This document shows, one piece after another, positions 37,059 through 49,439 of a DNA stretch of 64,000 bases. The number at the start of each line of letters is the position of its first letter. Within the stretch, counting starts at the first letter, position 1. The translations under genes and the position numbers were made by a program. The notes under the pieces were generated by a model, which was not told the DNA's origin, did no database searches, and saw only the letters and a list, made by a program, of their open reading frames with translations. The stretch is from Kiritimatiellales bacterium (GTDB taxonomy: Bacteria > Verrucomicrobiota > Kiritimatiellia > Kiritimatiellales > Pontiellaceae), in assembly GCA_003246265.1 (NCBI GenBank), contig QKAU01000002.1, positions 62,001-126,000 of the forward strand, in the 5' to 3' direction.

Positions 37059-37724
37059 ATGCGGCTGCAGGATTTCAGCGCCTTCGTCCTCGACATGGAT
37101 GGTACGCTGATCGACTCGGGAAAATACCACGCCCGGGCCTTTGCGGATGCCGTGCTGGAGCTTTGCGGCTACGCCCTTGCCCCGCACGAGCACCACGAGT
37201 TCTTCGCTTCGCATACCGACATCTTTTCGCTGGTGCTCAACAAGCGCCATGGGTTGTCCCTCGATCCGGCCGTCGTGCTGGCCAGCAAGCGGCGGCGCAT
37301 GCAGGAGATCTTCGTGGCGGAGCTGTTCGAAGGAGCCGGCGCCTTCCTGGAACACTGGCACGGCCGGATCCCCCTGGCGATGGCGACCAACTCGCCTTGG
37401 AGTTTTGTCCAGCCGGCCCTGCGGGATGCGGGCATCGGACACTATTTCGAGTGCATCATGACGGCCGACGAGGTTGTGCATCGCAAGCCGCACCCGGAAA
37501 TCATCGAGCGGACCGTCCAGCGGCTCGGTGTCGATCCGCTCGCCACCCTGGTGTTCGAAGACCAGCTGATCGGCATCGAAGCGGCGCGGGCCGCCGGCAC
37601 CCATGTCGTGGCGGTCGACAACGGACAGCCGGTCGATTTCCCGCCCGAGGTCGTGCTCCGCACATGGAGTGGATGGCTCAACAACCCGGAAATTCCCGAT
37701 GGAACCCCAACTGCTGGTCTTTGA
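37059..37724 (+). CDS. HAD-superfamily hydrolase, beta-phosphoglucomutase/phosphatase-like
   Basis: 221-residue haloacid-dehalogenase-fold protein. Motif I DMDGTLIDSG carries the two catalytic Asp, motif II ATNSPW the Thr/Ser, motif III lies at HRKPHPE, and motif IV is VFEDQLIGIEAA. An alpha-helical cap lies between motifs I and II. The closest pattern is the beta-phosphoglucomutase/CbbY group, but the substrate cannot be named. It starts 10 bp after the carbamoyltransferase and overlaps the next HAD gene by 26 bp. Confidence 0.85.
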   Translation: MRLQDFSAFVLDMDGTLIDSGKYHARAFADAVLELCGYALAPHEHHEFFASHTDIFSLVLNKRHGLSLDPAVVLASKRRRMQEIFVAELFEGAGAFLEHWHGRIPLAMATNSPWSFVQPALRDAGIGHYFECIMTADEVVHRKPHPEIIERTVQRLGVDPLATLVFEDQLIGIEAARAAGTHVVAVDNGQPVDFPPEVVLRTWSGWLNNPEIPDGTPTAGL

Positions 37725-38334
37725 TCTGGATGGTACGCTGATCGATTCGCGGGCCGACCTGGCGGCGGCGATCAACCACATGCGTGACCGGTTCGGGCTG
37801 GGGCCGCTGGCAATCGAAACGGTGGCTGGCTACATCGGCGACGGGGTCGGAAAGCTGGTGGAGCGCTCCCTCCAGGGGGCCGCGGTCGATTTCGGCGAGG
37901 CCCTGCGCATCAACAAGGCCTACTATCTGGACCACCTGGCCGTCCATACTGTGCTTTACGAAGGCGTCGCCGCGGGATTGGCGCAGCTTGCCCGGCGCGG
38001 ACATCGGCTGGCCGTCCTGACCAACAAGCCGGGGGATGCCACCCGCAGCATCCTGGACCATTTCGGATTGGTGCCGCACTTTGCCGCCATCATTGGCGGA
38101 GGTGGTGCCGAAAGGTTGAAGCCCGCCCCCGACGGACTGTTTCGATGCATGGAGGCGGCCGGGACCGGGACCGGCAATTCGTGGATGGTCGGCGACCACC
38201 ATACCGACCTGGCGGCGGCGAAAAATGCCGGGATCCGGTCGGCGTTTGTCCACTATGGCTTTGGCGATGCCGCGGGCCTGCAAGCCGATGCATATTTTGC
38301 TTCGTTTGACGAACTGGTCGGGTACTTTCTCTAG
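37699..38334 (+). CDS. HAD phosphatase, phosphoglycolate phosphatase-like
   Basis: 211-residue HAD hydrolase with FDLDGTLIDSRADLAAAIN at the start (as in Gph), a helical cap, LTNKPGDATRSIL (motif II), the Lys in RLKPAPD, and VGDHHTDLAAAKNAG (motif IV). In this family the enzyme removes phosphate from 2-phosphoglycolate made during repair of oxidised DNA ends. The similarity to Gph is good but other small phosphates are possible. The start at ATG 37699 lies inside the previous gene. The two adjacent HAD genes are only distantly similar, so they are not a recent duplication. Confidence 0.85.
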   Translation: MEPQLLVFDLDGTLIDSRADLAAAINHMRDRFGLGPLAIETVAGYIGDGVGKLVERSLQGAAVDFGEALRINKAYYLDHLAVHTVLYEGVAAGLAQLARRGHRLAVLTNKPGDATRSILDHFGLVPHFAAIIGGGGAERLKPAPDGLFRCMEAAGTGTGNSWMVGDHHTDLAAAKNAGIRSAFVHYGFGDAAGLQADAYFASFDELVGYFL

Positions 38335-38337
38335 GCC

Positions 38338-39087
38338 ATGAAGACCTACCTTTCCGAAATTTTCAGCTCGGTCCAGGGCGAAGGCCCCTACGTGGGGGAG
38401 CGCCACCTCTTCGTCCGTTTCTGCGGCTGCCACCGCGACTGCATCTTCTGCGATACCAACACCGAGCGGACCGAAACCGTGATGGTGGAGAAGGAGGCGG
38501 GATCGGGCGTTTTCGAACAGGTCCCCAACCCGCTGACGGTCGAGCAGATGATGGAGCTGGTCCGTGCGGTCGACGCCAGGAAGAACAACCGCCGCATCTC
38601 CCTGACGGGCGGGGCCCCGCTGCTCCAGGCCCACTACCTCAGGGAACTGCTTCCCCACCTGTGCGGCGACGACTACAGCATCTATCTCGAAACGGCCGGC
38701 GACCTGCCGCACCAGCTCAAGTCGATCATCGAATGGATCGATATCGTGGCCATGGATGTCAAGCTATCGAGCGTTACCCACGAAAAGCCCACCTTTCCCG
38801 CCCATTGGCAGTTCCTCCAAACCTGTCGCGACTGGGAAGTGGACGTTTTCGTGAAGATGGTCTTGTCCGCGGAAACCCACGAAGGCGAGCTGATGGAGGC
38901 CGCCCAGGGAATCAAGAAGGCGGGCGGCGAGAATACGCTGGTCGTGCTCCAGCCGATGACCAGGGCGGCGCGGACCGATGCCGTCCCGAGCCCCCTGCAG
39001 CTGCTCCGCTGGCAGGACAAGGTCGCCAAGCTGCTGCCCAACGTGCGCGTCATTCCCCAAACCCACAAGATGATGGATATGCTCTGA
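38338..39087 (+). CDS. queE: 7-carboxy-7-deazaguanine synthase
   Basis: Radical SAM enzyme that converts 6-carboxy-tetrahydropterin to 7-carboxy-7-deazaguanine on the queuosine pathway. The 249-residue protein starts [20 protein letters not shown], typical of QueE. The iron-sulfur Cys motif is [10 protein letters not shown] (CxxxCxxC), followed by the SAM-binding [10 protein letters not shown] and YLETAGDLP. It is the first of three tightly packed queuosine genes (1-3 bp gaps) following two HAD genes. Confidence 0.95.
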
Positions 39088-39088
39088 T

Positions 39089-39784
39089 ATGGCCGGCGAT
39101 GCAAAGAAAGCGGTGGTGCTACTGAGCGGCGGGCTCGATTCCGCGACCGCGCTCGCGATCGCCAGGCGGGAAGGGTTCGAACCCTACGCCCTGTCATTCC
39201 ACTATGGCCAGCGTCATGCCGTCGAACTTGAATGCGCGGTGGAGCAGGCCCGCTCGTTGGCCCGGGAGCACCGGATCGTAGAGATCGACCTGCGGGCATT
39301 CGGCGGATCGGCGCTCACCGCCGAGATCGAGGTGCCCAAGCACGACGATGTCGGCGAACTCACCGACGAGATTCCAGTGACCTACGTGCCCGCGCGCAAC
39401 ACCATTTTCCTCTCCTACGCCCTGGCCTGGGCGGAAGTGCTCGGGGCGAACGACATCTTCATCGGCGTCAACGCCCTCGACTACAGCGGCTATCCCGATT
39501 GCCGCCCCGAGTTTATCGAAGCCTTCGAGAGGGTGGCCAATCTCGCCACCGTTGCCGGCGTGAAGGGAAGCACGCTTTCGATCCACGCCCCGCTGATCCA
39601 TATGAGCAAGGCGGAAATCATCCGTTGCGGGCTGGATTTGGGAGTCGATTACGCCAAAACTACAAGTTGCTACGATCCCGCCCCCGATGGGCGCGCCTGC
39701 GGGCGATGCGACTCCTGCCTGCTGCGCAGGAAGGGGTTCCGGGATGCGGGGGCGGAGGATCCGCGCCGCTACATGGAGGTTTGA
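39089..39784 (+). CDS. queC: 7-cyano-7-deazaguanine synthase
   Basis: ATP-dependent enzyme that turns 7-carboxy-7-deazaguanine and ammonia into preQ0. The 231-residue protein has the PP-loop [36 protein letters not shown], and the C-terminal zinc-binding Cys cluster SCYDP...[14 protein letters not shown]. The gene lies between queE and queD. Confidence 0.97.
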
Positions 39785-39787
39785 CCG

Positions 39788-40153
39788 ATGCCGAAGATGA
39801 GGATCTACAAGGAGTTCAAGTTCGATTCCGCCCACTGGCTGCCCCACGTGCCGCCGACGCACAAGTGCGCCAACATGCATGGCCACACCTACATCGTGGA
39901 GATCCACATCGAGGACGAACTCCATCCCACGCTGGGCTGGGTGCTGGACTACAACGATCTCCGCAGGATTGTCGAACCGCTTATCGACCGGCTCGACCAC
40001 AAGGTGCTCAACGAGATCGAGGGGTTGGAGAATCCCACGGCGGAGCACCTGGCCCTCTGGCTGTGGGGTGCCATCAAGCCTTCCCTGCCGCAGCTCTGCC
40101 AGGTTGTCGTGAAGGAAAACCCCTCCAACGTCTGCATCTATTCGGGCGGGTAG
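39788..40153 (+). CDS. queD: 6-carboxytetrahydropterin synthase
   Basis: Converts dihydroneopterin triphosphate to 6-carboxy-tetrahydropterin, the first dedicated queuosine step. The 121-residue protein has zinc-ligand His residues in FDSAHWLP and MHGHTY, the catalytic Cys in THKCANMHGH, and the conserved VLDYNDLR and LDHKVLNE segments plus PTAEHLALWLW. It ends the queE-queC-queD cluster; the GTP cyclohydrolase that feeds it is not in the window. Confidence 0.95.
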   Translation: MPKMRIYKEFKFDSAHWLPHVPPTHKCANMHGHTYIVEIHIEDELHPTLGWVLDYNDLRRIVEPLIDRLDHKVLNEIEGLENPTAEHLALWLWGAIKPSLPQLCQVVVKENPSNVCIYSGG

Positions 40154-40273
40154 GCACAGGCCATCCGTATTCGAGGAAGGGACGAGCCACCGGGCCGTCC
40201 GTTCGGATGATCGGTCATTCCTGATTTCGGCACGCTCGGCGATCGCGCCCTACCGTGCCGGTCGAACCCTGCC

Positions 40274-40690
40274 TCACGCTTCTGACGAATCGATCTTGAC
40301 CGAAGAAGTGATGCCGCCGCGGGCGGTGAAGTTTCCGTTGACGACGAGTCGGCGAGGCTTGAGCGTTGCGGACAGGTCGGAATAGATGCGGTTGACGATC
40401 TCTTCGTAGAAGGTTCCGGTCTGACGGAACGAGAAGAGGTAGAGCTTGAGCGACTTGCTCTCCACGCACAACGCCTCGGGGATGTATTCGATCAGGATCG
40501 TGGCGAAGTCCGGTTGGCCGGTGATGGGGCAGAGCGAAGTGAACTCCGAGGTCTGGAAGGTGATCCAGTAGTTGCGCTGGCGGTTGGCGTTTTCGAAGGT
40601 TTCGAGCTTCGCCTCGCCAGGTGAGGCGGGATAGCTGGTCTCGCCCTTCTTCAGCAGGGTCAGTCCGTCGTGCCGGTGCTCGTCGCTCAT
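40274..40690 (-). CDS. queF: NADPH-dependent preQ0 reductase
   Basis: Reduces the nitrile of preQ0 to the amine of preQ1, completing the base before it is put into tRNA. The 138-residue, single-domain short type has the active-site Cys in TSLCPITGQPDF, the substrate-binding Glu in VESKSLKLYLFSFR, and a C-terminal NGNFTARGG. ATG 40690 has GAGGA upstream. It is convergent with queD, so all four preQ1 genes are local but on two transcripts. I looked for a preQ1 riboswitch upstream and saw no convincing one. Confidence 0.95.
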   Translation of the reverse strand: MSDEHRHDGLTLLKKGETSYPASPGEAKLETFENANRQRNYWITFQTSEFTSLCPITGQPDFATILIEYIPEALCVESKSLKLYLFSFRQTGTFYEEIVNRIYSDLSATLKPRRLVVNGNFTARGGITSSVKIDSSEA

Positions 40691-40854
40691 GGTTGGTTCC
40701 TCGTTGTCAAAGGTCCGGCATCTTATCGGCCGGCGGGAAATGGGCAAGCCCGATGTTCAACGCCGCCGCGCCTGGACTGTCCATCGCCGAGGCTATGCAA
40801 GGTTGACCCCGCGGATCGCTTCGGGTCTACTTGGAGACGGATCGAAAGGAACGC

Positions 40855-41646
40855 ATGCACTACAACGAACCCCGGAATATCGGAGGCATGGTCGGGATAA
40901 CGCCCGCCGTACGCTTCCTGCTGGTCCTGAACATAGCGGTTTTCGTGCTGGAGTCCTGGTTCCATGTCCCACTGGGTAATACATTCGCCCTGCCCGCCGC
41001 CTGGTGGCAACACTTCTCCTTCGGCAAGCTCTTCACCTACATGTTCGTCCATGCTAGCTTCTCCCATCTCTTCATGAACATGCTGGGCCTCTTCTTCATC
41101 GGCCCGGCCGTGGAGCAGACGATCGGCTCCTACCGCTTTTTCGTCCTGTACTATTTGAGCGGCATCCTGGGCGGGCTGGGTTGGTCGCTGCTGGCGAAAT
41201 CAGGCTGCTGCGTCGGTGCTTCCGGAGCCTTCATGGGCATCCTGGGCGCCTTCGGGGCCCTCTATCCGAACGCGCAGCTGCTCCTCTGGTTCGTCCTTCC
41301 CATCCGGGCGTGGGTGCTTGTCCTGATCCTGGCCGCATGGGAGCTGCACGAGACGATCGGCGAACCGCTGATTGGCGGCATCGCGAACGCGGCCCATCTT
41401 TTTGGCGGCATCGCCGGCTTCTGCTACGCCTTCTCGCTGAAGCATCCGCATGTCGTCGCCGAGCTGCGGCAGCGGTTGGGCCTGGCCAAGGCGGCAGGAT
41501 CCCGGCGCGCTCCGGGAACGGGTGCCCGCTCCCAAACCCTTTCGCCCGAGGAGGTGGACCGCATCCTCGACAAGATCGGCAGGCAGGGGATGGGCGCCCT
41601 GACCCCGCGCGAGCGCGAACTGCTGAAGAAAGCGACCAGAGGGTAG
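40855..41646 (+). CDS. Rhomboid-family intramembrane serine protease
   Basis: 263-residue polytopic membrane protein with about six transmembrane segments. The rhomboid pattern is clear: a HASFSHLFMNMLGLFF segment, catalytic Ser in VGASGAFMGI, and catalytic His in NAAHLFGGIAG. The C-terminal cytoplasmic tail holds an Arg/Ala-rich linker and a short helical segment (LSPEEVDRILDKIGRQG) common in bacterial rhomboids. The start ATG 40855 has AAAGGA in range; TTG 40831 is less likely. The substrate is unknown. Confidence 0.92.
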   Translation: MHYNEPRNIGGMVGITPAVRFLLVLNIAVFVLESWFHVPLGNTFALPAAWWQHFSFGKLFTYMFVHASFSHLFMNMLGLFFIGPAVEQTIGSYRFFVLYYLSGILGGLGWSLLAKSGCCVGASGAFMGILGAFGALYPNAQLLLWFVLPIRAWVLVLILAAWELHETIGEPLIGGIANAAHLFGGIAGFCYAFSLKHPHVVAELRQRLGLAKAAGSRRAPGTGARSQTLSPEEVDRILDKIGRQGMGALTPRERELLKKATRG

Positions 41647-41773: not shown

Positions 41774-44146
41774 CTATCCTAGGCACGTGATGGGATTATG
41801 TTCCAATGCGCCTCGCTGGTTCCGGAACACGCGGGGGGTTGCTTTGCAGTGTTCTCGGAAAGCGCGGCAGAAATGGTTGGTCTGCCTGAAGCCGCACTGT
41901 TCAGCGATTTCGTTGATGCGCATGGACGAATAGATGAGCAATTCCTCCGCATGGAGGAGCCGGGTTTCGAGGAGGTAGCGGCGAGGCGTGGTGCGTAGAT
42001 GACGCTTGAACCGCATTTCCAGCAGGCGCCGCCCGATTCCGGCAACCTCGGCAAGATCATCAACGGTGATGGCATCCTGAAAATGGGTTTCAATGAATTC
42101 GACGGCGCGTCCCAGTTCGGGATCGTCCGACGCAATGCCGGCGGTGGACCCGCGCTCGCGCACCATTTGCGCGGGGAAAATTCTTTCTGCCACCGGCCGT
42201 TCCTTTCGGATGTAGGCGATAAAGTTCTTAAGAGTATGGGCTCCGATGCGCGGAAATCCTATGTCGATACTGCTTAGGGCAGGTCGGGCAAGACGACAAT
42301 AGCCAGGGCTGTTGTCAACGCCAAGAATAGCGATTTCCCGCGGCACCTTGATGCCATGATTCTGGCACATCAACAGGATCTGGGTTGCCATCTGGTCGTT
42401 GAAGCAGAACAGGGCGATGGGCTTTGGCAGTTCCTTCAACCAGTCAATCATGGGACGGGAATCGGTGTCCATGAAGTAGGTGTGAATGCAAGTCCCATGC
42501 AGTCCGGCATGGTGGATCGCAGCGCGAAACCCGGCTTGGCGGTCGCGGCTTCGGCGGTCGGAAAGTCCGAGCTTCCGTTCGCGCGGGGTCACCGGCTTGA
42601 TGTCGAAATAGGCACAGTAGGCGAAATTGCGGTGTCCCTTTCGCAGGAAATGACGACCGGCGAGAAGCCCAACGTCGATTTCGTCCACCTGCATGCTTAT
42701 CGCACCGGGAAGGTTTTGTTCGTAGGCATGATACAGGACGGGGGTCTGGGGATTTGCGTTGTCGGGTATCTCGTCGCCGGATACGACGATAGCGCCATCA
42801 TACCAATAGAGTTGCGTCCACGAAGCGAAACGGGCGCGGTCATGCAGGATGAGGTTTATGGATGGATCGGTCTGTGCATACGCGGTTGCCCCCTCCATGA
42901 AGTCGCGCGAAGCCTGCCATTGGAACGAAGAGAGCATTCCGATCTGGATGATATCGGTTTTGTTGGTGCCCGGGTTGCGAACGGGCGCGGCTCCTCCCAT
43001 GAAATAATTCCGGTATTCGGCGGGGGTGCATCCCTCGAACCTCCTAAAATTCCGGTAAACGCTGTGATGGCTCATACCGAGTGTGGAGCAGATGTCCTCG
43101 ATGGGAGCCCGGCGGACACGGAGTTCCTTCAGGCAGTGTTCGTGCCGCACGGCGATCAGTTCCTCCTGCGGCGTCCTGCCCCGATGTTTCCTGAAGAGGA
43201 TTTCTAGATGTCGTTGGCCCAAGCGGGATGCGCGCACGACATCGGCCACCGATGCGCCCAGATGGGCATGGTCGTTGATGTATCTGACCGCCCGCACAAG
43301 CCGTTCGTCTACGGTGGTTGAAAAGTGGCCGGTCGATTCCCTCTGGATGGTTTTGAAAACCGGAACGATGGTATGAGGCTTATTCGGCATGGTGCCTTCA
43401 AGCATCTGCTCAAGCATGGAAAGCCCCTGGTAGGCCAGACCCGGCAGGTCGATATCGACCGTTGAAATGGAGGGATGGGAAAGGTTGCAGACCAGCTGGT
43501 CGTTGTCGACCCCCACGATGGCTATCTCATGCGGCACCTGCAACCGAAGCAGAGAACAGGCCTGTAGAACCTCCAAAGCCGCTGAATCGTTGAAGGTAAA
43601 AATTCCTGCCGGGCGGGACAAGTGTTCCATCCAGGATAGAATATCCTTTGCCGTTCCAAGGGTATGGCATTGCACGCTCGTTCCGGCATCCTGTATTCCC
43701 CGTTCCTCGAGCCCCTGGATAAATCCGCGCAGGCGCGCCTTGCTTCTCCTCCCGGAGTCCGACTGCGGTTCCGCCGGATAATCGCAGTAGCCGAAGCAGG
43801 CCATTCCGCGGTTCCACAGGAGTTCCGCAGCCAGCCGACCGATGCTTTCCGTGTCGGTGCTGATGCAGATTTCGTCGGATCGTGGTTCCGAGAGGTCAAG
43901 ATGAACGACCGGTTGATCGGATATGTAGGGAAGAATCCATGGTGACCGTCCAGAGAGTAGAAAGGCATCGAACTGCCGGGTAAGGCGATCCGGATCCTCC
44001 AGTCCCTTGCATAGCAGCACGGGGTCGATTCGACGGTCCCGCTCTTCGATATACCGGACGCAACCGTTTACCGTATCCCTTCCATATCCCAACTGCGGGT
44101 CGGTAGCCACGGCAACGCTCCATCGCTTTTTGGGAGATTCACTCAT
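41774..44146 (-). CDS. Tandem XylR-type regulator: two sugar-binding plus AraC-HTH modules in one chain
   Basis: About 790 residues, twice the normal size of this regulator type. Module 1 has a LacI/periplasmic-binding-like ligand domain (SVAVATDPQLG at the start, FTFNDSAALEVLQ, IAIVGVDND) to about residue 265. An AraC double helix-turn-helix follows at about 280-385. After a short linker, module 2 repeats the plan: a ligand domain from IIQIGMLSSFQW with FCFNDQMATQILL and IAILGVDNS, then a second AraC domain (ELGRAVEFIETHFQDAITVDDLAEVAG) to the C-terminus. The modules are clearly diverged. ATG 44146 is chosen; ATG 44164 adds six residues. It is divergent from a secreted carbohydrate-binding protein and GH3 gene, its likely targets. 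Confidence 0.88.
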   Translation of the reverse strand: MSESPKKRWSVAVATDPQLGYGRDTVNGCVRYIEERDRRIDPVLLCKGLEDPDRLTRQFDAFLLSGRSPWILPYISDQPVVHLDLSEPRSDEICISTDTESIGRLAAELLWNRGMACFGYCDYPAEPQSDSGRRSKARLRGFIQGLEERGIQDAGTSVQCHTLGTAKDILSWMEHLSRPAGIFTFNDSAALEVLQACSLLRLQVPHEIAIVGVDNDQLVCNLSHPSISTVDIDLPGLAYQGLSMLEQMLEGTMPNKPHTIVPVFKTIQRESTGHFSTTVDERLVRAVRYINDHAHLGASVADVVRASRLGQRHLEILFRKHRGRTPQEELIAVRHEHCLKELRVRRAPIEDICSTLGMSHHSVYRNFRRFEGCTPAEYRNYFMGGAAPVRNPGTNKTDIIQIGMLSSFQWQASRDFMEGATAYAQTDPSINLILHDRARFASWTQLYWYDGAIVVSGDEIPDNANPQTPVLYHAYEQNLPGAISMQVDEIDVGLLAGRHFLRKGHRNFAYCAYFDIKPVTPRERKLGLSDRRSRDRQAGFRAAIHHAGLHGTCIHTYFMDTDSRPMIDWLKELPKPIALFCFNDQMATQILLMCQNHGIKVPREIAILGVDNSPGYCRLARPALSSIDIGFPRIGAHTLKNFIAYIRKERPVAERIFPAQMVRERGSTAGIASDDPELGRAVEFIETHFQDAITVDDLAEVAGIGRRLLEMRFKRHLRTTPRRYLLETRLLHAEELLIYSSMRINEIAEQCGFRQTNHFCRAFREHCKATPRVFRNQRGALEHNPITCLG

Positions 44147-44180
44147 TCCAGCAAGGCTTCGCATTCAGATCATATTACTA

Positions 44181-44203
44181 CGAATCGCGCTATTGTCGAT
44201 TCG
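44181..44203. promoter_or_regulatory. Candidate operator: perfect inverted repeat CGAATCG-N9-CGATTCG
   Basis: A 7-bp perfect dyad with 9-bp spacer lies in the 124-bp gap between the tandem XylR-type regulator and the secreted-protein gene, overlapping the predicted -35 region of the latter. It is the most plausible binding site for the regulator. Confidence 0.5.
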
Positions 44204-44220
44204 GATTCGCCTTGTATGTT
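44193..44220 (+). promoter_or_regulatory. Candidate promoter of the secreted protein/GH3 cluster
   Basis: TTGTCG (44193-44198) and TATGTT (44215-44220) are spaced 16 bp apart, each matching 4/6 of consensus. The -35 overlaps the inverted repeat at 44181-44203, so a bound regulator could block or contact RNA polymerase. Confidence 0.35.
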
Positions 44221-44270
44221 GTTATGCGTGCGGTTTGTAGCCAACCCTGTATGGAAAGGAATGGAGCGAG

Positions 44271-46727
44271 ATGAAATCAAAGAATACACCTATGCTGCTG
44301 ATGTGCGCGGCTGTGTTTTTCGGTTCGGCGTATTTTGCGCCGGTCGAGGCGGCGAATTCGCCATGGACAAGCAGCAACCGCATCGCCATCAGCGCGGACG
44401 GCAATCCTGACGCGGATGCGGACGACACCGGGGCAACGCCGTTTACACTGGCCATATTGGCCAAACTCGGACTGCAGGACAATTTGGTGCATTACGATTT
44501 CAACAATTTCCTGGAATACAAAATCATCAATCCAGGCAGCAACCGCATGTGGTTGAGCGCCATGGGCGGACAAAATCGTTGGGGATTCGACAGCAGCCGC
44601 TTCTTCGATGCGTCTATTGATTCCGACGGGGCCGTTGCGCACCTGACGGCTGAAATCAATAAATCAACGGCCGGCGATCCGCTCTACCTCATTGCGGCGG
44701 GTCCGATGGAACTGACCTATCGCGCACTGAAAGCAGCCAATCCCGCGGCGATTCAATACGTAACGATTGTATCGCACCATCAGTATAATGAATATTTCAA
44801 GCCGCGCCTTTGGCAACGCAACTGGAATGATATTCAGGCTGAGTTTCCGGGCATTGGCTATATCCGGATCGCAGACCAGAACGGGGCCATCGGCACGGGA
44901 CTCAAAGGGGAAGTCGATTCGGACTTCAGCTGGCTTCAGACCCATGCAGACCCCAACCTGAACTGGGTGTACGACCGCATCGTGGCCGGTTCTCCTGACG
45001 TCTCAGACGCGGGTATGACCGCCTGGCTGGTCGGCATCAACGGCATCGATGAAAAGGTATCCATTGCCGAAATGCAGACCTGGTTCGGTACAAACTCCAT
45101 TCCGATGAACGGCGGAACCGCGTCAACACCTGCTGCCCCGGCCGGTGTCGATCCATCCGTCGTGCCGCCCCCAACCGAAAGTATTTTTGAGGAAGTCGGC
45201 GGAAAGATCGTGATTGAGGCCGAGAGTGTTCCGCTGACTGACAAGTGGCATCTCCTTACAAGCGACTCGGCGTCCAAACCGGGTACAGTTTACAGCGGTG
45301 ACGGTTATATTCGCTGGGAGCCTTCATGGATCGGTGAAATCAGCCAGCAACATCAGGGAGTTCTGTGCTACAAGCTTCGCATCACCAATCCGGGCAACTA
45401 CCGCATGGCGCTGAGGTCTTCGCACTATGGCGCGCCGGCGCGCGACCAGTGGAACGACTGCTGGACCGTAATGGGTTTGAATCCGGTAAACCCCTACGGC
45501 ATTACACGCAAAACCTACCACTCCATTACCCAGGCTGCCTTTGACAGCGGGACAGACTTTACCTGGGACACCACACACAACAACTATGGAACGGTTGCAT
45601 CGACGGACGGAACCTATTCCCAGCCACTCTATGACCTCACTGCAGGTGATCACTATTTCTGGATTCTGGGTCGCTCGGGCGGATTCCGGATCGACAAGAT
45701 CCATTTCTTCCTCGAGGGCGTCAGCGGATTCAAGAGCGACTCCGAACCCGTGACCCCGATACTTCCCGGCGATCTTGAACCGCCTCCGACACCCACCTAT
45801 CCTGTACAGGCATCTTTCGATGGATCAAATATTATCCTGAGCATGACCAATGGTCCGGCCAACAACTGGTTTTCAGTGCTGTCCAAGACCAACCTGGCGG
45901 ACGCGACCTGGACCACCAACGGGACGAGCATACCCCTGGACGGATCGGGCGCTGGTGCCTTTACCAATCCGATGACGGCACTGCAGGCATTCTACGTCCT
46001 GGTTGAGTCCGGAGCGCCGCCGGCCCCGCAGCCTCCCTATACGACCAGCTTCGCCGGCCCCGCCTACAGCGCCGGCAATCTGCACGGACAGGATGGCTGG
46101 ATTGCACAGACCCAGTGGCAGGCGGATGGTGCAGGGAATGTCGTGAACACAGTCGGAACATTTATTCGTGCTCACAATACCGGCGTACTGGGCACCACCG
46201 CTACCGGTGAGGCGATGTCGATCAGTTCCACCTTCACACTTGGTGCCTATGCCACACCGTCCGCCGACATCGCGGATTGGGAGGAGGGGATCTTCGTGCA
46301 GGCCATGTCTCATCAAAATGGAGTGCAGGCATGGTCGGCTGGGCTTTCTGCCGGCATTTTCTATGATGTTGGAACGGGCAATGTCGAACTCCGTGCGGAT
46401 GCGGGTACGGAAGTCTCTGGAACCTACTCCGCAACCATCGGCGCTGCGACAGGCCTTGGCGGTACCACCTACACGCTGGAAACGGTATACTCCAAGACGG
46501 CGGATGATACGTGGTCCGTGGTGGCCAAACTTATTCAGGGTGGAACTACGAATTCGATCAGCTACACGGCTAGCGCGGGGATCGATCTGAATACCGACAC
46601 CGATGGCGGCGGTATTCTGGGGGGATTCATGGCGGTTCCATGCGGCGGTGGTTCCGGCGGCGTTGCCACCGCTCCCTTTGGGCCCACGACGGTCATGGAC
46701 TATTCCATTGAAGTTTTTGCGCTGTAG
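44271..46727 (+). CDS. Secreted nucleoside-hydrolase-like / carbohydrate-binding multidomain protein
   Basis: 818-residue exported protein. It has a signal peptide (MLLMCAAVFFGSAYFAPVEAA), then a domain starting IAISADGNPDADADDTGA that resembles the nucleoside-hydrolase-like domain seen in marine polysaccharide-degrading proteins (about residues 35-280). A beta-sandwich of the CBM6/CBM35 kind begins KIVIEAESVPL (about 310-490), followed by an FN3-like module and a C-terminal concanavalin-like module (about 585-818, from TTSFAGPAYSAGNLHGQDGW). GGAG lies 5 bases before ATG 44271. Its setting beside a GH3 enzyme and a sugar-responsive regulator suggests glycan binding or cleavage; a defined activity cannot be assigned. 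Confidence 0.78.
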   Translation: MKSKNTPMLLMCAAVFFGSAYFAPVEAANSPWTSSNRIAISADGNPDADADDTGATPFTLAILAKLGLQDNLVHYDFNNFLEYKIINPGSNRMWLSAMGGQNRWGFDSSRFFDASIDSDGAVAHLTAEINKSTAGDPLYLIAAGPMELTYRALKAANPAAIQYVTIVSHHQYNEYFKPRLWQRNWNDIQAEFPGIGYIRIADQNGAIGTGLKGEVDSDFSWLQTHADPNLNWVYDRIVAGSPDVSDAGMTAWLVGINGIDEKVSIAEMQTWFGTNSIPMNGGTASTPAAPAGVDPSVVPPPTESIFEEVGGKIVIEAESVPLTDKWHLLTSDSASKPGTVYSGDGYIRWEPSWIGEISQQHQGVLCYKLRITNPGNYRMALRSSHYGAPARDQWNDCWTVMGLNPVNPYGITRKTYHSITQAAFDSGTDFTWDTTHNNYGTVASTDGTYSQPLYDLTAGDHYFWILGRSGGFRIDKIHFFLEGVSGFKSDSEPVTPILPGDLEPPPTPTYPVQASFDGSNIILSMTNGPANNWFSVLSKTNLADATWTTNGTSIPLDGSGAGAFTNPMTALQAFYVLVESGAPPAPQPPYTTSFAGPAYSAGNLHGQDGWIAQTQWQADGAGNVVNTVGTFIRAHNTGVLGTTATGEAMSISSTFTLGAYATPSADIADWEEGIFVQAMSHQNGVQAWSAGLSAGIFYDVGTGNVELRADAGTEVSGTYSATIGAATGLGGTTYTLETVYSKTADDTWSVVAKLIQGGTTNSISYTASAGIDLNTDTDGGGILGGFMAVPCGGGSGGVATAPFGPTTVMDYSIEVFAL

Positions 46728-46871
46728 ATCATTTTGCTCCCTCTCATCTGCGGCAGTGCTCCGGATTGACCACGACAACATGCCGTCCTCTTGAGTTTTA
46801 ACTTTCACAACTTACACTCATCCACGAAACCTAGGGCAAAGACGTTTTTACAACAGAGAGGCGATGGAAAA

Positions 46872-49439
46872 ATGAAAAACCGAATGCTTGGATACATGGT
46901 TGCGATAACAATAAGTGCGTCGCCGGTCTTGATGGCGGCCCCGTGGCAGGACACTGCGCTCACGGTCGACCAGCGCGTGGAAGACCTGCTTTCGCGCATG
47001 ACGCTGGAGGAAAAAATACAGCAATGCAGTTCGGACATTCCGGCGATCGAGCGCCTGGGCATCCCCGCCTACATGTGGTACGGCGAAGCTCTGCACGGTG
47101 TCATTGCCTGGAAATGCACCTCGTTTCCCCAGAACATCGCGATGGGCTGCACCTGGAATCCAGAACTGATGCTGGAGGTGGCCACGGCCATTTCCGACGA
47201 GGCGAGGGCCTTGAAGAACACGGGTCAGAAAGAGGTGATGATGTTTTCGCCCACCGTCAACATGGCGCGGGACCCGCGCTGGGGGCGCAACGAGGAGTGC
47301 TACAGCGAAGATCCCTATCTGATGACGCAGATGGCCCGCATGTATGTGCGCGGCATGCAGGGGAATGATCCCGAATACCTTAAAACCGTGTGCACCGTGA
47401 AGCACTATGTCGCCAACAATGTGGATGCCGGCCGCGAAAGAATCCATTCCAGGATCAGCGAACGGGATCTGCGCGAATACTATTTCCCGGCCTACAAGGC
47501 GTGCATCGTGGATGAAAATGCCGCCGGCATCATGACCGCGCTGAACGGGCTGAACGGCATACCCTGCTCGGGGCACGACTGGCTGGTTAACCAGGTGTTG
47601 CGCCAGGAGTGGGGGTTCAATGGGTATGTGATTGCCGACTGGAACGCCGCCAGCGGTATGTACAAAAACATGAAATATGTGGGTTCTTATGCGGAAGCGT
47701 CCGCCTTGGCGATCAAATCCGGCGTCGACCAGGAGTGCTTCCGTCCGAAAGCCTCTCCCATGGTGAAGCATCTCAAGGAGGCGATTGACCAAGGCTTGCT
47801 GACCGAAAAAGATCTGGATGTGTCGGTGAAGCGCTTGTTGCGCCTCCGTTTCCTGACCGGGGATTTCGATCCGCCGGAGATCAATCCCTATGCGCATATT
47901 CCGGAATCCGTGTTGGAGTGCGAGGGTCACCGCATGCTGGCCCGAAAGGCGGCCGAGCAAGGGATAGTGCTGTTGAAGAACGACAACCCGACTCTGCCCC
48001 TGAAAAAGGAGATGAAGAAGATCGCAGTCATCGGACCCTTTGCCGATCGATGCTGGCTCGGAATTTATTCCGGCCATCCCAAGAGCACGGTATCGCCGTT
48101 GGCGGGGATCAGGGACGCCTTCGATGGCGAGGTGGTTTATGCCGAAGGATGCGGCGTTACCGAAGAGCGGGATCCCGAAAAATTCCGTGAAGCCATGGCG
48201 GTTGCGAAGAGCGCCGATACCTGTATTGTGGTGCTGGGCAATGATGAAACCACTGCAACGGAAAACGTGGACCGGAAATCCCTGAACCTGCCCGGCGCCC
48301 AGCAGCAGTTGCTGGAGGAAGTCCATAAGGTCAATGCCAACGTGGTACTGGTTCTGGTTCCGAGCGGTGCGACTGCGGTAGGCTGGGCCCAGGACCATGT
48401 TCCGGCCATCCTCTGCCTGTGGCCCAATGGACAGGAACAGGGCCGCGCGCTGGCCGATGTGCTGTTCGGCAAGGTGAATCCCGGCGGAAAGCTCTGTTCG
48501 ACATGGTTCCGGTCAGACAGCGACCTGCCGGATGTCCACGACTACAACGTGCACAACAATCGCACCTACATGTATTTCAACGGCGAACCACTCTATCCGT
48601 TTGGATATGGCCTCAGCTACACTTCGTTTGAATACGGCAACCTGAAGGTCGACCAAGAGAAGGTGGCCTCCGGCGAAGCCATACGGCTTCGCTTCGATGT
48701 GCAGAATACGGGTTCGGTACCCGGTGATGAGATTACCCAGCTTTACATCAAGGATTTGGATGCAAGCGTGCCTGTGCCGAAGAAGGCGTTGAAAGGATTC
48801 AGGCGCATCCATCTTGCTCCCGGTGAAAAGAAGACTGTCGAATTGGAGCTTCCCTATGCCGCATTGAGTTTCTGGGATGCGGATACGAAACGCTTCATCG
48901 TTGAGCCGGGCGAGTTCGAGTTGATGGTGGGCGCTTCATCGGAAGACATACGGCTCGAAGCAAGCGTGGTGGCGGATGGGGGAACGATACCCGAACGAAG
49001 GGTTGAGGCCAGGGAGGAGCGCACAGGCAACAAGGCCAGTAGGATATATGGGGCCATGTCCGAAGGAAGTAGCCAAGTTGCGCTTTCCAACGTGGAGGAC
49101 CATAAGTGGGTTGAATATGCCTATACCTTCAAGGATCCCGGCTTCTATGTTAATGATTGGAAGGCGGAAGTATGGATCTCGTCGGCCGAAGGCAACGCTC
49201 GGATCAGGCTCTCCATGCTTGGCATGGACTTTGGTGAATATGATGTATCTGACCCTTCTGATTCAGGCGATGTCCTCAAACTTCCAGTCGCAATTCCCAT
49301 TCCGCCGGAATATGGGCGAGAGTGTCAGATCAGGATCACCGTATTGCAAGGAAAGGTTGAAATAGATTCAATCCACATCCATTCACCAGAAACCGGCAAA
49401 CCCGCCGAGGTCAACTCCCCATCCTCGAAATCGGAATAG
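46872..49439 (+). CDS. Glycoside hydrolase family 3, secreted, with C-terminal sugar-binding-like domain
   Basis: 855-residue exo-acting beta-glycosidase (beta-glucosidase or xylosidase type). Signal peptide MLGYMVAITISASPVLMAA. The GH3 TIM-barrel has the KHYVANN substrate motif (177-183) and the probable nucleophile Asp256 in GYVIADWNAA. The alpha/beta sandwich and FN3-like domain follow, the latter from about 600 (YPFGYGLSYTSFEY to MVGASSEDIRL). The last 120 residues form an added beta-rich module (WVEYAYTFKDPGFYVNDWKAEVWI) resembling a CBM. ATG 46872 is the start that gives a proper signal peptide. It follows the secreted protein by 144 bp, probably in one regulon. Confidence 0.92.
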   Translation: MKNRMLGYMVAITISASPVLMAAPWQDTALTVDQRVEDLLSRMTLEEKIQQCSSDIPAIERLGIPAYMWYGEALHGVIAWKCTSFPQNIAMGCTWNPELMLEVATAISDEARALKNTGQKEVMMFSPTVNMARDPRWGRNEECYSEDPYLMTQMARMYVRGMQGNDPEYLKTVCTVKHYVANNVDAGRERIHSRISERDLREYYFPAYKACIVDENAAGIMTALNGLNGIPCSGHDWLVNQVLRQEWGFNGYVIADWNAASGMYKNMKYVGSYAEASALAIKSGVDQECFRPKASPMVKHLKEAIDQGLLTEKDLDVSVKRLLRLRFLTGDFDPPEINPYAHIPESVLECEGHRMLARKAAEQGIVLLKNDNPTLPLKKEMKKIAVIGPFADRCWLGIYSGHPKSTVSPLAGIRDAFDGEVVYAEGCGVTEERDPEKFREAMAVAKSADTCIVVLGNDETTATENVDRKSLNLPGAQQQLLEEVHKVNANVVLVLVPSGATAVGWAQDHVPAILCLWPNGQEQGRALADVLFGKVNPGGKLCSTWFRSDSDLPDVHDYNVHNNRTYMYFNGEPLYPFGYGLSYTSFEYGNLKVDQEKVASGEAIRLRFDVQNTGSVPGDEITQLYIKDLDASVPVPKKALKGFRRIHLAPGEKKTVELELPYAALSFWDADTKRFIVEPGEFELMVGASSEDIRLEASVVADGGTIPERRVEAREERTGNKASRIYGAMSEGSSQVALSNVEDHKWVEYAYTFKDPGFYVNDWKAEVWISSAEGNARIRLSMLGMDFGEYDVSDPSDSGDVLKLPVAIPIPPEYGRECQIRITVLQGKVEIDSIHIHSPETGKPAEVNSPSSKSE

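Follow-up and report, generated by a model that had tools for sequence, protein, structure and literature searches.

A putative fusion of two XylR-type regulators in a single chain beside a beta-xylosidase-like GH3 gene in a Kiritimatiellales bacterium

In the stretch of 64,000 nucleotides analysed here (the window), we identified an open reading frame that encodes two complete modules of a XylR-type regulator one after the other, each composed of a ligand-binding domain and an AraC double helix-turn-helix (HTH). We consider it fairly probable that two XylR-type regulators have genuinely been fused in this gene, whose product would act as a covalent pseudo-dimer controlling the divergent locus. 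The family itself is ordinary, each module alone being a XylR-type member; it is the single-chain tandem architecture that is unusual. Members usually, though not by strict definition, carry one module of ~390 residues per chain, which proved true of the other XylR-type genes in the sampled relatives, and the present gene departs from this habit with two modules in 790 residues.

The frame lies on the minus strand, which the original prediction had not given, at positions 41774-44164, and is free of internal stop codons. From the first ATG (44164 to 41774) it encodes 796 residues and from the second (44146 to 41774) 790 residues. Domain borders were read off the AlphaFold2 secondary structure and gave a four-domain order: an N-terminal LacI/XylR-type ligand-binding (PBP) domain (residues ~1-275, positions 43322-44146), an N-terminal AraC double HTH of seven helices (281-382, 43001-43306), a linker, MGGAAPVRNPGTNKTD (383-398, 42953-43000), a C-terminal ligand-binding domain of the same type (399-672, 42131-42952) and a C-terminal AraC double HTH (676-780, 41807-42121). 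Pfam search of the whole protein returned Peripla_BP_3 twice and HTH_18 twice. When the halves were split at the linker and each was scanned alone against the Pfam gathering cut-offs, PF13377 and PF12833 passed in the N half (97.5 and 49.5 bits) as well as in the C half (92.9 and 76.5 bits), and PF00165 was likewise above the cut-off in both. The halves share 29% identity over 314 aligned columns with E = 9e-38, thus their internal likeness is not due to chance, and at the level of the domain architecture assigned from sequence they are a true repeat. The prediction that one chain carries two complete but diverged modules was in this way borne out.

The junction, which had been placed near 42940-42990 with a linker of about 20 residues, was found close by, at about 43000-42953, and the linker has about 16 residues, roughly as estimated. 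The HTH of the N half closes with the customary tail of the family, GCTPAEYRN, after which come MGGAAPVRNPGTNKTD and the strand that opens the following binding domain; the junction peptide is AEYRNYFMGGAAPVRNPGTNKTDIIQIGM. The original prediction had also raised a frameshift at this place, of which the three-frame translation of positions 42950-43000 revealed no sign: no indel signature was seen, only the called frame yields the AraC tail, the linker and the start of the next PBP domain, and neither module continues in the other two frames. We regard it as quite improbable that two adjacent genes were joined by a consensus error (loss of a stop codon) in the draft assembly, or that two proteins are made through initiation at codon 383. 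For such a two-gene arrangement speak the ATG of codon 383, which sits exactly at the expected start of a separate C gene, the adjacent two-gene layout with one stop in a relative (G051, described below) and the dependence of the fusion on a single gene; the frame, however, is unbroken before and after the junction, and the third-position GC of the linker (0.70) is coding-like and matches the rest of the gene. Furthermore, none of the ATGs that lie in frame at codons 383, 404 and 417 is preceded by a good Shine-Dalgarno sequence or ribosome-binding site, and a single product is therefore the simplest reading; a separate C product through the ATGs at codons 383 and 404 would be possible. An AGGAGG with an ATG near codon 370 was rejected as the start of the C module, as it is out of frame and leads into a dead end of 67 residues.

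Structure prediction and PDB matching placed both modules close to E. coli XylR. Using an alignment with 38 other modules, AlphaFold2 modelled the N module at a mean pLDDT of 89.4, showing the binding domain and, at high confidence, its seven HTH helices. Its top Foldseek match was apo E. coli XylR (4fe4), with ~396 alignment columns covering both domains, and members of the LacI family were also among the matches. In the full-length model both modules are folded (mean pLDDT 76.1, pTM 0.69) and the linker has a pLDDT below 50 at residues 383-396; the best PDB match was again XylR. As E. coli XylR is the best PDB match of both halves, the XylR kinship of the original prediction is upheld. E. 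coli XylR (4fe4, 4fe7) shares the LacI/GalR-type sugar-binding domain followed by the AraC double HTH, but it is a single module of 392 residues that forms a dimer of two identical chains, whereas here two diverged modules lie in each chain. In the E. coli dimer each AraC head reads one of two neighbouring DNA half-sites. Since XylR is known as a dimer, we find it reasonable to infer by analogy a pre-formed state, in which one chain would provide both halves of a XylR-like dimer, joined by the flexible linker into a covalent pseudo-dimer.

The two halves differ in their HTH regions. The second HTH of the N half is one residue short, this residue being kept in 46/46 other modules of the 47 aligned; HTH_18 scores lower in the N half (49.5 vs 76.5 bits in the C half), and of the highly conserved positions the N half keeps 30/40 and the C half 34/40, most relatives keeping 34-38. 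For these three reasons the N half may read DNA differently from the C half, or more weakly. The same deviations are compatible both with two different DNA-reading heads and with an N module that serves as a sensor only. A real fusion whose N module, its specific DNA binding lost or altered, works as an additional ligand sensor or dimerisation partner, while the C module reads the DNA, appears to us a possible though rather unlikely arrangement: all three deviations of the N half fit it, yet 7/7 of the N HTH helices are predicted at high confidence and the N HTH score still exceeds the Pfam cut-off. Given the 29% identity of the halves and the residue missing from the N-terminal HTH, it is plausible that they recognise different ligands and different DNA sites.

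To our reading of the sampled data the tandem stands alone. Sampling covered 29 family and genus genomes, 288 of the class and 388 of the phylum, the wide scans scoring 2-3 candidates per genome. Among the matches listed for the 29 family and genus genomes, no XylR-type match carried a second module, and the same was true of the matches listed for the 388 phylum genomes. We also built a two-module profile, for which single modules were artificially concatenated and combined with the window protein. Among its matches listed in the 288 class genomes, the window gene alone spanned the profile (2-753, 1043 bits) and the remaining ones covered essentially one half each; repeated on the 388 phylum genomes, the search again gave no second tandem among the matches listed. 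Beyond the phylum, coverage consisted of one pattern scan and a plasmid collection. The pattern scan of genome contigs returned mostly LacI-type matches with no tandem among those listed, and the best 20 of 1149 plasmid records match over stretches of ~0.9-1.2 kb, that is, single modules. No description of a tandem XylR was found in the literature. Thus other proteins with this four-domain order, a search for which the original prediction had proposed, were not encountered in the sampled genomes, and the tandem is unique, as judged from sequence, within what was sampled; it is known from one gene, in a draft assembly of 81 contigs. XylR-type regulators with one module, from the same genus, class and phylum, share with it the domain order, the length per module and ~25-36% identity, and occur many per genome, but no listed frame among them covers both halves. 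Long frames of 857, 679, 675, 574, 573, 550 and 533 residues were examined as tandems and rejected, as each holds one module, the rest being non-homologous sequence upstream. A frame of 824 residues in G051 was rejected likewise and proved to consist of two genes with a single stop between them.

This G051 locus (L082; contig C16, 1588-4017, minus strand) consists of two adjacent XylR-type genes in the same frame with one stop codon between them, and hence the pre-fusion layout exists. As in the window gene, two XylR modules follow each other head to tail without a change of frame, but the stop codon here separates two proteins, which are not particularly related in sequence to the window halves. 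This is plausibly the layout from which a fusion would arise by losing one stop codon. The tree, built from 47 modules, united the two window halves with the G009 homolog of the C half (support 97/81); the N half and the C group lie on long branches, that of N being very long, and their join was flagged as possibly false. With C left out, the N half took no supported position. Given the long branches and the unplaced N half, duplication is favoured, but not proven, as the origin of the two halves. The most likely route would lead from duplication of a XylR gene through an adjacent gene pair and the loss of the intervening stop codon to the fused chain.

In the genome G009 lies the nearest homolog of the C half, about 66-67% identical to it over 247 residues in its second part. 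On codon comparison with it the C module is under purifying selection (dN 0.25, dS saturated at ~2.7). The 5' part of the homolog, inspected for an N half, has been replaced by sequence that is repeated in other genomes, and a frameshift is present, therefore G009 tells nothing about a former tandem there. In this locus (L071; contig C223, 168-365) a 66-residue sequence is joined to the truncated, frameshifted C-module homolog, and two sister genomes have 4-6 copies of it, most of them within frames of ~510-525 residues. Because of this recurrence, the repeated sequence is likely a mobile element. The damaged G009 copy and the failure to find an orthologous tandem in the sampled genomes would suit a recent neutral fusion or a decaying gene, with a tandem arrangement devoid of selected function. 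Against it stand 790 open codons of steady codon-position composition, the good predicted folds and the strong divergence of the halves, which shows that they are no fresh duplicate, and we deem this explanation highly improbable.

The surroundings of the gene suggest what it may regulate. The divergent intergenic region of 106 bp (44165-44270) is where operators and promoters would be expected. In it the search for an operator yielded only a 9-nt near-repeat (44210 and 44245), matched by 51/200 shuffles and thus at chance level, and one weak sigma-70-like match was seen on the minus strand. Across this region lie, on the plus strand, two probable target genes, one encoding a protein of 818 residues (44271-46727) that matches no Pfam or NCBIfam model, the other a GH3 glycosidase (46791-49439; PF00933/PF01915). 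The 818-residue protein, encoded upstream of the GH3 gene, has a secreted look by eye. The models nearest to the GH3 protein are those of beta-xylosidases: its best NCBIfam model is Xyl3A, with a score below the cut-off of that model, and its best PDB match is the beta-xylosidase 7zb3. A XylR-type regulator beside a beta-xylosidase-like GH3 gene would fit a role in controlling a xylan-type locus. The tandem regulator probably acts on this divergent locus (44271-49439), and from the same genomic context we infer a sugar such as D-xylose as a candidate ligand. On the other side of the regulator (37603-41646) a run of small genes reads like queuosine synthesis together with a rhomboid-domain gene; QueF has a Pfam match at 40274-40747, and its neighbours look by eye like radical-SAM and QueC/QueD-like genes.

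Taken together, a genuine fusion is favoured by the open, coding-like frame across the junction, by both domains above the cut-off in each half, by E. coli XylR at the top of the PDB matches and the folding of both modules in the full-length model, and by the grouping of N and C in the tree, the G051 pair, the purifying selection on the C module and the GH3 gene across the promoter region. Counted against it are the single gene with no second tandem in the sampled relatives, which leaves no further copy by which to judge whether the fusion is conserved, and also the long N branch, the 30/40 conserved positions kept by the N half, the operator search and the possible internal starts at codons 383 and 404. 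A more elaborate form, a single-chain heterodimeric XylR that would sense two different sugars and read an asymmetric operator with two unlike AraC heads, as an AND/OR gate for a xylan-type locus, seems to us unlikely. If the fusion is only a lineage-specific one with redundant halves, it would be a curiosity of domain architecture. If the protein is a natural covalent pseudo-dimer, gene fusion would have turned a homodimeric sugar-responsive activator into a two-input switch, and this would offer a ready-made scaffold for studying how two ligand pockets govern one promoter.
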